From: Glaciimonas sp. PAMC28666
GTDB taxonomy: Bacteria > Pseudomonadota > Gammaproteobacteria > Burkholderiales > Burkholderiaceae_D
NCBI RefSeq assembly: GCF_016917355.1
Contig: NZ_CP070304.1
Location: 2,232,001-2,296,000, forward strand
DNA: 64,000 bases
Direction: 5' to 3'
Shown here piece by piece: positions 1 through 1,768 of the stretch (its first letter is position 1; each line of letters begins with the position of its first letter). A model generated the notes under the pieces. It ran no database searches, was not told where the DNA came from, and worked only from the letters and a program-made list of their open reading frames with translations. The translations under genes were made by a program, and so were the position numbers.

Positions 1-706
1 GGCTAATGAGGGACAGGCTGTCGTTGGGCGAGGCGTTGATGCCGCCGCCTTCGACCATAATCGCGCCACGGGTGACCCGGAACGCGGCCAGACTGCCTGC
101 GCCGCCGAATTGCGGCACCCCGGTGGTCAAGGTGACATGGCCGCCATTGATCACGCCAAATCCATTGATGGACAGGCCGTTGGGATTGGCGACAATGACG
201 TCGGCGCGTTGTCCGGCCACCTCAATATAGCCATTAAGGTGACTGGGCGAGACGCCGAGGGTTTCGTTGAGGATGACCTGCGCACCGGTATTGAGTTGGG
301 CATTGCCCTGAATGTAGCCGCCCAGCGTGGTGCTGACCGAGGTCGGGCTGTTGTTGAGAATTAAGCCGTTACTATCGACGTTGAAGGCGCTGTAACGATT
401 ATGACTGAGCCCTGTCGCGTTTGGCTGGACGATCTGCACCACCGGCACGCCGTTGGCGGCCCTGTCGATCATGGGCGCAGGCCCGCCATGTTTATAGGCG
501 ATGGTTTGTGCCTGTACCAGCGTGACGCGCCCGAAAGTGGCTGCCACCAACACCGCCAACAGCGCAAAACGCATCGGCAGGAAAGTGAATCCGGCGGGGG
601 CGTTGCCGCCCACCGAGCATTTACTGCGGCCCCGTGTGTTCTCGGCAACCGCGATATATTGACCGGAGGCATGGCTAAAGAGCGTACGATAAAACTGTTT
701 ATTCAT
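1..706 (-). CDS. Two-partner-secretion haemagglutinin (TpsA/FhaB-like), N-terminal part
   Basis: This is the 5' end of a large secreted adhesin or toxin carrier; it is open to the window edge with no stop over about 235 codons. It starts MNKQFYRTLFSHASGQYIAV, an extended signal peptide region (ESPR) typical of very large autotransporter and TpsA proteins. A hydrophobic signal core follows at about residues 50-70 and ends near VQAQ. The TPS secretion domain comes next, with ILNE, the segment LNGYIEVAGQRADVIVANPN and an NPNGL motif, which are family hallmarks. In known systems the TPS domain is recognised by a TpsB/FhaC outer-membrane transporter, whose gene is not in view. The ATG at 704-706 is preceded by a GGAG/GAGG Shine-Dalgarno. 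Whether it is a plain adhesin or a CdiA contact-dependent toxin cannot be told without the C-terminus. Confidence 0.9.
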   Translation of the reverse strand, partial: MNKQFYRTLFSHASGQYIAVAENTRGRSKCSVGGNAPAGFTFLPMRFALLAVLVAATFGRVTLVQAQTIAYKHGGPAPMIDRAANGVPVVQIVQPNATGLSHNRYSAFNVDSNGLILNNSPTSVSTTLGGYIQGNAQLNTGAQVILNETLGVSPSHLNGYIEVAGQRADVIVANPNGLSINGFGVINGGHVTLTTGVPQFGGAGSLAAFRVTRGAIMVEGGGINASPNDSLSLIS

Positions 707-1138
707 GCCTCAACTCCGGTGTTACAAATCTGATCTGATCTGCGAATGATGGGTAGAAAAATGCGGTGTTATCTACCGGCGACCACACCACGGGAACGGC
801 GTGAATTGGTCGATGGCAGGAGTTCAGTCAGAAGGGGGAGTTTGCAAAAAAAAGCGTGCTTGCCTATTTCCGTGCTGGCATTTGAGAGAACAGACTATGT
901 CTCAAAAGCAAGGCAATAAACGGTACTGGCGCTGACAGTTAGGTAAATTGCTTATGTTTGAATACGGAGTAGTAAAAAATTGCAGGTTGGGTGATAGAGC
1001 AGAAACAGAACATAAGTCGGACATAAAAAGCAGAACATAAGCAGGGCATGCAGATGTGCAGTTTCCGCCGAAAATCAACGCTTCACAGAAGTTGCTTTGA
1101 TGCCTTATACTGATTTCGTCCCTGACAAAGAGGGGAAC
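707..1138. other. Gene-free stretch upstream of tpsA
   Basis: I see no convincing gene here. It should hold the promoter of the minus-strand haemagglutinin. At 1006-1041 the 11-mer CAGAACATAAG occurs twice, separated by a degenerate copy, one of several short quasi-repeats in this window. Confidence 0.5.
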
Positions 1139-1155
1139 GGGTTTAGCAGCCAGAC
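1139..1155 (+). promoter_or_regulatory. Upstream TTTAGCAG element pairing with the C4-like RNA
   Basis: The sequence GGGTTTAGCAGCCAGAC is nearly complementary to CTGCTAACCC at 1274-1283 in the C4-like RNA. In phage P1 C4 RNA, short segments of the antisense RNA pair with nearby target copies; this may be one partner of such a pair. The role is inferred from complementarity only. Confidence 0.4.
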
Positions 1156-1226
1156 TTATCCAAAGCGCACAAACGGCGCAATGCCGTATTATTTTGTGCG
1201 TTCACTATTGTTGTGCCTTTTTGGGG

Positions 1227-1301
1227 GGCAATGGTGGGGAGGCTTCGGCCTGCCGGTTGCTTTGGATACTGGTCTGCTAACCCTGCCATTTGCCGCCCAC
1301 C
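1227..1301 (+). ncRNA. C4-like antisense RNA (candidate)
   Basis: The stretch folds by inspection into a closed multibranch structure. The outer stem is GGTGGG (1233-1238) with CCCACC (1296-1301). Inside it is a TTCG-capped hairpin AGGC/GCCT (1240-1251). A second hairpin pairs CCGGT (1253-1257) with ACTGG (1268-1272) and is followed directly by CTGCTAACCC. This order, with GGCTTCGGCC then GCCGGTT then GGTCTGCTAACC, matches my memory of the C4 antisense RNA of phages P1/P7 and its chromosomal relatives. CTGCTAA is complementary to TTAGCAG copies at 1139-1155 and 1305-1312, so the antisense and target elements are all local. It was not checked against a covariance model. Confidence 0.55.
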
Positions 1302-1317
1302 CCGTTTAGCAGCGGGG
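1300..1317 (+). promoter_or_regulatory. Hairpin displaying the TTTAGCAG target loop
   Basis: A 5-bp stem CCCCG/CGGGG encloses the 8-nt loop TTTAGCAG, the complement of the CTGCTAA segment just upstream. It lies about 33 nt before the start codon at 1350. In the P1 C4 system the equivalent target occludes the ribosome binding site of the leader ORF icd. Here the position suggests control of the 1350 leader ORF, which is an inference. Confidence 0.45.
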
Positions 1318-1349
1318 CGCGGATTAATCACTATCCGAAGGAAATAACA

Positions 1350-1436
1350 ATGCCGAGTATTACCACGTCCGCTCTCCGCCGTTTTCAGTCCATGACGCGG
1401 CTTATTAGCCACGCTAAAAAGGGGATGCAATCATGA
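1350..1436 (+). CDS. 28-residue leader peptide overlapping the next gene
   Basis: A short ORF begins at ATG 1350 behind a good Shine-Dalgarno (GAAGGAAAT) and encodes MPSITTSALRRFQSMTRLIS plus eight further residues. Its stop TGA (1434-1436) overlaps the ATG of the following ORF (1433-1435) as ATGA, the usual arrangement for translational coupling. The peptide is basic and has no recognisable domain. It sits where icd sits relative to C4 RNA in phage P1, but it is much shorter than Icd. I think its role is to pass translational control to the downstream gene. Confidence 0.5.
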   Translation: MPSITTSALRRFQSMTRLISHAKKGMQS

Positions 1437-1768
1437 AAAAGCCTGCCAATACAACTTCCTCATTCTCTACCGCATCAACACCAATACCAACACCAGAAGC
1501 AACCCATCAAGCCTTTTCATGGCTGCCTTCACACCATCAACATGATCAGAGCGCGCAGTTTTATGCCATGACGATCGATATCTGCCAGGGTGTCAAAACC
1601 TGCATCGATCTGGTGCAGGTAAGCAACGCGGACAGAGGCACTGATACGTTACCGATGTTGGATGTGAATGCCACCGAGCGCTTGCTGCGTCTCGCATTGA
1701 TGTCATCTCAGATGTTGGCGGAAGTGGCGGAGGGGCGCATTGATGGGCTAGCTCCTGCCAGCGATTGA
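1433..1768 (+). CDS. Small hypothetical protein downstream of C4-like RNA
   Basis: This 111-residue soluble protein is not recognised. The first 35 residues are rich in Ser, Thr and Pro and look disordered; the rest could form two or three helices, ending in MSSQMLAEVAEG. No membrane segment, signal or cysteine motif is visible beyond two scattered cysteines. The ATG overlaps the stop of the 28-residue leader and an AGGGG Shine-Dalgarno lies inside that leader. A strong hairpin at 1842-1869 closes the unit. The length and placement recall small DUF proteins that follow such RNA leaders in other proteobacteria, but I cannot assign a family. Confidence 0.6.
   Translation: MKKPANTTSSFSTASTPIPTPEATHQAFSWLPSHHQHDQSAQFYAMTIDICQGVKTCIDLVQVSNADRGTDTLPMLDVNATERLLRLALMSSQMLAEVAEGRIDGLAPASD

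Follow-up and report, generated by a model that had tools for sequence, protein, structure and literature searches.

Analysis of a 64,000-nucleotide stretch of the Glaciimonas sp. PAMC28666 chromosome (hereafter the window) indicated, with a probability that we place at roughly three in four, that the locus at positions 1082 to 1768 is a C4/isrK-type antisense switch which derives from a phage-like integrative element and was multiplied in the chromosome, and in which the C4 RNA would repress and a short RNA would titrate it. In phages, C4-type RNAs are known as single immunity switches; here a control unit known from viruses seems to have given rise to a whole set of switches with separate addresses, serving a protein family without a name. 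The module is one of 26 and not a single relic, and nearly all addresses differ. The elements, their pairings, the joint variation of the paired parts and the constraint on the protein can be read from the DNA itself.

The features of the window locus are listed in Table 1. A sequence-only reading had proposed a C4 layout with two copies of TTTAGCAG facing CTGCTAA, followed by a 28-codon leader ORF overlapping the next ORF by ATGA; the Rfam scan returned the C4 model well above its curated cut-off, and all of these elements were located where they had been placed. Absent from that reading were the second arm b' with b1 and b2, the hairpin at 1173-1187 and the other 25 C4 matches.

Table 1. Features of the C4 module in the window, positions counted from the first nucleotide of the window.
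Feature	Position	Strand	Basis
Sigma-70-like promoter, TTCACA-18-TATACT	1082..1111	+	Consensus scan, 10/12 matches; weak alone
isrK-like leader RNA with a1 and b1, terminator-like hairpin at its end	1118..1193	+	RF01394, weak
a1, eight-base address loop TTTAGCAG, heptamer TTAGCAG at 1143-1149	1142..1149	+	Complementary to a'
b1, target of the second antisense arm	1157..1165	+	Exact 10-base complement of b' in the window copy
Intrinsic-terminator-like stem, tail ATTATTTTGT	1173..1187	+	Terminator scan, fold
C4 antisense RNA	1217..1304	+	RF01695 (cmscan), 57.1 bits, cut-off 45, E 2.2e-8, whole model length
b', antisense arm CTTTGGATA, loop of the second hairpin	1260..1268	+	Complementary to b1, partly to b2
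a', antisense address CTGCTAA	1274..1280	+	Covaries with a1 and a2
a2, address copy TTTAGCAG (TTAGCAG at 1306-1312), CCCCG/CGGGG hairpin loop	1305..1312	+	
b2 (1332-1340) and ribosome-binding site of the leader ORF	1332..1343	+	AAGGAA ends 6 bases before ATG
28-codon leader ORF	1350..1436	+	ATGA overlap with the next gene at 1433-1436
111-aa protein ORF, unnamed family	1433..1768	+	17 own-genome members

The antisense arms a' and b' are complementary to a1/b1 and to a2/b2, b2 only in part in the window copy, where b2:b' consists of five exact bases followed by a mismatch; in other copies, L001, L005 and L015 for example, it extends over 9-11 bases. Similarity of the window copy to the other copies in blastn starts at about 1064, and shuffling the scanned stretch yields on average about 0.9 promoter-like and about 0.9 terminator-like sites. 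The fold of 1217-1352 was more stable than its shuffles (z -3.05; 2/200 as stable), and that of 1212-1310 alone was unremarkable (z -1.37; 18/200 as stable). The isrK model (RF01394, cut-off 50 bits) gave 25.1 bits (E 0.25) at the window copy and 47.0, 49.1 and 49.8 bits at the same place in L017, L020 and L023, the last being the best of the 20 of 26 own-genome loci scanned; the cut-off was exceeded at L043 and L045, both from other genera. For the c4-a1b1 model (RF03163, cut-off 46.7 bits) no match to E 1 was found at the window copy, and other copies reached at most 31.0 bits.

Pairing was analysed in units from the genomes G000, G004 and G001, 58 in all, of which 51 were aligned by MAFFT with pairing ignored and seven without an upstream or a downstream part (L016, L018, L022, L025, L076, L090 and L101) were left out. 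Full complementarity to a' was found for a1 in 49/51 units and for a2 in 42/51, one of the misses being a unit with a four-base address core lying one column out of register; with a model match and a conserved pairing both present, the C4 proposal stands. The a1:a' helix was paired in 98.6% of cells, with two-sided changes at five of the seven pairs and no one-sided changes, and a':a2 in 94.1%, while b1:b' was paired in 72.4% of cells (eight pairs) and 89.6% (the ninth), with two-sided changes at all nine. The stems flanking the loops were paired in 94.6% (a1) and 95.5% (a2) of cells; taken jointly, with eight-base loops, 95.1% of cells were paired and two-sided changes occurred at six of the eight pairs.

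The covariation score of a1:a' and b1:b' together was 0.570 against a shuffled mean of 0.207, that of a':a2 was 0.656 against 0.204, and neither was reached by any of 500 shuffles, which ignore relatedness. With the partner shifted by one to three columns, the scores were at most 0.160 and 0.193, respectively; this control keeps relatedness but favours a structure taken from one sequence, here the window copy. The number of pairs with double changes did not stand apart from the shuffles (equalled in 35 and 333 of 500) and the number of pair types was not clearly apart from them (74 and 36 of 500). In the 26 own-genome units the longest stretch of a' matching the upstream region of the same unit averaged 6.77 bases against 5.10 for permuted partners, the largest of 20000 partner permutations being 5.92, and the other three comparisons were alike. 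A seven-base match is weak by itself and could be a chance resemblance, but the E value of the model match (2.2e-8), the 26 matches in the genome and a covariation score that none of 500 shuffles reached stand against chance, which we count as refuted.

By analogy with P1 C4, Gifsy-1 IsrK and P4, C4 is expected to block translation of the leader; most likely it thereby blocks the coupled gene, and the a1/b1 RNA counters C4. Transcription, processing, repression, titration and origin are the steps that we infer here. A phage-like integrative element would have been stripped to promoter, RNA and one gene and then multiplied in this chromosome. A single transcript would start near 1115; part of it would stop at the hairpin 1173-1187 as a short RNA carrying a1 and b1, and the remainder would read through and be trimmed by the host to C4. 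Excision from a longer transcript by RNase P is a mark of C4 RNAs. The a' and b' arms of C4 would pair with a2 and b2, covering the start of the leader ORF and keeping the ATGA-coupled protein off, and the short a1/b1 RNA would titrate C4 and so turn the protein on. Since each copy has its own two-part address, the copies would act largely on themselves. Counted in favour of the switch are the C4 model match and the 26 matches in the genome, the pairings with two-sided changes, the b arm that differs between species at L005/L073 but matches within each, the constrained main protein with its freer leader, the joint presence of integrase, C4, coupled protein and replication gene in L137, L139 and L141, and the isrK match at L045; counted against it are the weak isrK match in the window, the five-base b2, an own duplex that is not always strictly the best, and 10 incomplete units of 26.

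The order of the elements would also suit a control of the P4 type, in which C4 binds a1/b1 while the transcript is still growing and promotes a stop at 1173-1187, so that the gene is left untranscribed and the block of the leader is secondary. We regard this as possible, if somewhat doubtful, and it may work together with the blocking of the leader. The terminator-like hairpin is placed between a1/b1 and C4, the upstream site is the better kept one (a1 matching a' in 49/51 units, a2 in 42/51), and in the account of P4 outlined in PMC4825925 the antisense RNA pairs upstream and downstream and causes termination. A hairpin with a T-run is found at this position in many aligned copies, but the T-run is short or broken in some, the window copy included, and neither b2 at the ribosome site nor the covariation of a2 is needed for an upstream stop alone.

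The coupled protein of about 100 aa, whose start overlaps the stop of the leader as in isrK-orf45-anrP-type coupling, belongs to a family with 17 aligned members in the own genome and 22 invariant positions. A leader, the ATGA overlap and a main ORF of at least 60 codons occurred together in 16/26 own-genome units and in 15/23, 7/9, 0/2, 0/1 and 4/20 units of the other five genomes. The 10 remaining own-genome units do not have the full set, some being broken and some having another gene. In genome G274, from another genus, three of the four full sets have leaders of just 4-8 codons and 16/20 units have an ORF of 108-145 codons that starts directly 42-51 bases after C4; the leader is therefore not universal.

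Analysis of 11 hand-chosen pairs gave main-ORF dN/dS values of 0.11-0.29 in seven of the eight G000 and G004 pairs (the eighth was not finite) and of 0.31, 0.38 and 0.81 in the three G001 pairs, the last resting on almost no changes. For the leader, values ran from 0.29 to 1.03 across the same eight G000 and G004 pairs; two of the G001 pairs gave 2.28 and 2.04, and the third was not finite. These ratios point to a main protein under constraint and to a leader whose amino acids are weakly constrained.

No accepted match of the window protein was found in Pfam (best E 0.11) and none in NCBIfam; the 17 own-genome members likewise gave no accepted match (lowest E 0.11 in Pfam and 0.065 in PHROGs; nothing to E 1 among PDB sequences), nor did 31 wider relatives (lowest E 0.1 in Pfam, 0.52 in PDB and, with one member, 0.017 in NCBIfam), in agreement with the earlier reading, in which the coupled gene had no assigned function. 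AlphaFold2 with five sequences predicted two long helices at low confidence, and the mean pLDDT of 67 made the model too uncertain for a fold search. At L004, L017 and L020 the usual protein is replaced by a second type of 74-78 aa carrying 'LHSR.SAILA', for which neither an accepted family nor a detectable kinship to the usual protein was found. From its place in the elements described below, our guess is that the coupled protein is a small early-acting or host-directed protein.

The own genome (5.23 Mb) contains 26 C4 matches, 25 of them over the cut-off; the exact upstream target is kept in 23 copies and the exact downstream target in 21. C4 matches numbered 26, 9, 2, 1 and 23 in five genomes of the genus. 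In a sample of the family 40/195 genomes had a match, mostly one to three each, and in a sample of the class 24/369, with 11 candidates scored per genome, so that copy numbers there are lower bounds. G274 had 24 matches, of which 20 were fetched, and close relatives of the coupled protein were found at four loci in Collimonas. In nine of the 20 fetched G274 units (L107, L108, L110, L111, L113, L116, L117, L119 and L120) a1 is an exact match to a' and no matching a2 was found; from their sequences these look like a second class of module. Some modules lie in pairs about 280-690 bases apart on one strand and with different addresses (L017/L018, L019/L021, L002/L022 and L024/L026).

Blastn revealed that the sequence common to the copies extends from about 150 bases before to up to about 630 bases after the C4 start. 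A larger mobile unit was considered and rejected, as similarity is confined to the module; the exceptions are overlapping tandem loci, L007 and L015. At L007 similarity begins at -189, with a weak C4 remnant just upstream, and on its minus strand L007:985-1049 carries a xanthine riboswitch-like match (34.9 bits, just under the cut-off of 36). At L015 the segment +674 to +988 from the C4 start, beyond the module, shares 77% identity with a portion of the L002/L022 locus and may be another repeated sequence.

There are 52 flanking ORFs at the 26 copies, some shared by tandem loci, and the 43 that were scanned gave metabolic, transport and regulatory Pfam families, ORFs with no Pfam match not being counted. 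No phage structural or replication family was present among the flank families listed (43/52 ORFs, one list holding 25 of 28 families), in line with the chromosomal setting without a phage gene that the sequence-only reading had described; PF10136, named 'Site-specific recombinase', adjoins L017/L018. The gene next to the window module codes for a gamma-glutamyltranspeptidase on the opposite strand, and G004, G001 and G003 have this gene as well (94-97% identity), there with no C4 match nearby. On the other side of the module, window positions 1-705 on the minus strand hold the start of a gene with a two-partner-secretion domain; in three relatives an ORF that by eye is barstar-like stands beside the gamma-glutamyltranspeptidase gene in its place.

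The copies might be decaying relics of old elements with no present function, an explanation that we hold to be very improbable. Units without an upstream part exist (L016, L018, L025, L076 and L090), as do units with a2 lost or the ORF broken, and flank ORFs of the two richest genomes match in just eight combinations, three of them long and on the same side; against this, main-gene dN/dS is 0.11-0.29 in the finite G000 and G004 pairs, and the addresses keep matching while they change.

Outside the genus the module was found in a different setting. The coupled protein was detected in 47/392 genomes of the family, at most 12 candidates being scored per genome. Among other genera that encode it, C4 was present in 26 of the 40 genomes searched (of 43); it lay at most 1.3 kb upstream on the same strand for 43/70 protein matches and not within that distance for the other 27. 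In L137, L139 and L141 a Pfam-confirmed tyrosine integrase, C4, the coupled protein and a primase/helicase or AAA protein follow in succession, with a Rha-type regulator between integrase and C4 in L137, and in L140 and L142 C4 and the coupled protein are followed by an AAA or primase gene. The isrK-positive L043 and L045 correspond to L142 and L137, respectively. As the coupled protein follows C4 in such integrase-bearing elements, they are a likely source of the module.

Two further RNA families were detected near these loci. Int-alpA RNA (RF02996) scored over its cut-off near C4 at L033 and near the coupled protein at L058 (in L134) and L063 (in L135), which agrees with integrative elements. 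At L070:1377-1464 sRNA-Xcc1 (RF02221; 65.4 bits against a cut-off of 53) is found 36 bases ahead of a member of the coupled-protein family, so that the two RNAs, sRNA-Xcc1 and C4, may be variants of a single type of switch.

Searches of phage and plasmid records with the window protein gave no match, nor did phages with one relative and plasmids with another as query. Among viral contigs neither the window protein nor A1 found a match, and A4 found one weak relative (28% identity); that relative is encoded near genes that by eye are repressor-like and Rha-like.

Comparison of the copies points to an address that changes faster than the rest of the module. In G001 the genes of L095 and L099 hardly differ, 99-100 columns in every 100 being identical along most of their length, and the scaffolds differ by 4.3%; yet three of five address bases are different, alike at a1, a' and a2. 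The six within-genome pairs with less than 10% scaffold difference, all from G001, had a mean address difference of 0.53 against 0.54 for distant pairs; one of them, L095/L097, has an identical a and a different b. L005 and L073 occupy one conserved place in the chromosome (79% identity over 1888 bp); there a is kept and b differs between the species, with b1, b' and b2 matching within each species. At the other two places followed, L001/L091 and L008/L082, a and b, or b alone, differ, and a2 is lost in both L008 and L082. Gene conversion or swapping of short segments could also explain the fast change of the address.

Within a genome each (a, b) address was unique in 26/26 units, in 22/22 parsed (L088 of 23 units was unparsed), in 9/9, and in G274 in the 20/20 fetched of 24. 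Across six genomes, none of 104 within-genome pairs with b differing by at most two bases shared a, where 6.5 were expected by shuffling (P 0.001); the same shuffle at zero and one b differences gave P 0.168 and 0.027, and these cut-offs were compared after the data had been seen. Between genomes 15/226 pairs with b differing by at most two bases shared a (genome-label permutation P 0.011, and 0.0055 within the genus), and at three b differences 7/205 within-genome pairs shared a against 30/529 between genomes. A claim of insulation from any single test was rejected because P varies with the b cut-off and 7/205 pairs share a at three differences. By duplex energy the own a1+b1 was strictly best in 14/22, 15/21 and 7/8 units and the own a2+b2 in 16/22, 16/21 and 7/8; as the own target is strictly best in part of the units, cross-talk among copies may occur. 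Taken together, the address comparisons suggest that the copies are likely, but not settled to be, insulated from one another, and argue with moderate strength for selection against address sharing within a genome.

A further-reaching and tentative proposal is that the copies are mutually insulated, self-addressed antisense switches whose addresses are driven apart in each genome, like plasmid incompatibility groups. A copy with an address already present would be silenced or lost, so that copies would survive only with a new address. If so, each unit, guarded by an RNA of its own, would be a small element, either selfish or tamed by the host, and the change of address would be an arms race visible inside single genomes.

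The same address counts bear on immunity in trans, according to which the chromosomal C4 RNAs would mainly silence incoming integrative elements or phages with the same address, much as C4 acts in phage superinfection, the coupled protein being cargo. We consider this rather unlikely. No whole address is common to two parsed units within a genome and 15/226 similar-b pairs between genomes share a, other genera have both C4 and the coupled protein in elements with an integrase, and a like role is proposed for Acinetobacter baumannii in the excerpted text of PMC5320573. Yet the protein is still constrained in the chromosomal copies, most modules keep their own targets, and the viral contigs yielded one weak relative and the phages and plasmids none. 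The self-addressed C4/isrK-type switch stays our preferred reading.

In the immI operon of phages P1 and P7 (c4-icd-ant; RF01695) icd precedes ant. The window locus resembles this operon in its model match over the cut-off, in its a'/b' arms and in having targets on both sides of C4, and its leader ORF precedes the main gene as icd does in the account given in PMC8198154. It differs in that no antirepressor gene was found adjacent, the downstream protein having no accepted family match, so that it is not assigned to the P1/P7 immI type with icd and ant downstream; the target is the unnamed family of about 100 aa, and 26 matches with nearly all addresses different occur in one genome.

The isrK-orf45-anrP locus of the Salmonella prophage Gifsy-1, as far as it is described in the available text of PMC4825925, shares with the module a short terminated upstream RNA, a read-through mRNA and an AUGA overlap, the RNAs being predicted here; there, the short IsrK activates the coupled orf45-anrP in trans, and the amino-acid sequence of orf45 varies like that of the leader here. 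Unlike in Gifsy-1, the main gene is no known antirepressor, the isrK match in the window is under the cut-off, and the module is chromosomal and multiplied. The P4 CI RNA with seqA and seqC, as retold in PMC4825925, is likewise an antisense RNA between two targets. The units of other genera recall satellite phage P4 in that replication genes of integrase-bearing elements come after them. P4 works by terminating transcription, a step that in the module would depend on the terminator-like hairpin.

For Burkholderia cenocepacia, dRNA-seq results presented in PMC4603805 include an 81-nt isrK with a terminator and a 90-nt C4 in one transcription unit, and C4-like RNAs of A. baumannii appear to be processed according to the excerpted PMC5320573. 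The Group 1 RNAs of A. baumannii AB5075 (21 C4-like sRNAs in the same excerpt) are similar in being many per genome and in varying chiefly in the a' loop; the excerpt names neither adjacent targets nor a joint variation of a1, a' and a2, whereas most copies here carry targets and gene. In the titles and opening lines of abstracts of the part of the literature covered, no description of multiplied C4 units with their own targets was found.

With many copies that carry their own targets and gene, specificity, cross-talk and the speed of address change become measurable in one genome. The copies supply antisense pairs, matched as well as mismatched, that arose in nature; they may guide the search for the logic by which other multi-copy C4 families choose their targets, and they suggest how a control unit of mobile elements can persist as a chromosomal gene family. 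Multi-copy C4-like RNAs are already known from A. baumannii; beside these, and within the literature covered, the copy number, the separate addresses and the target gene of the Glaciimonas modules appear to be new.
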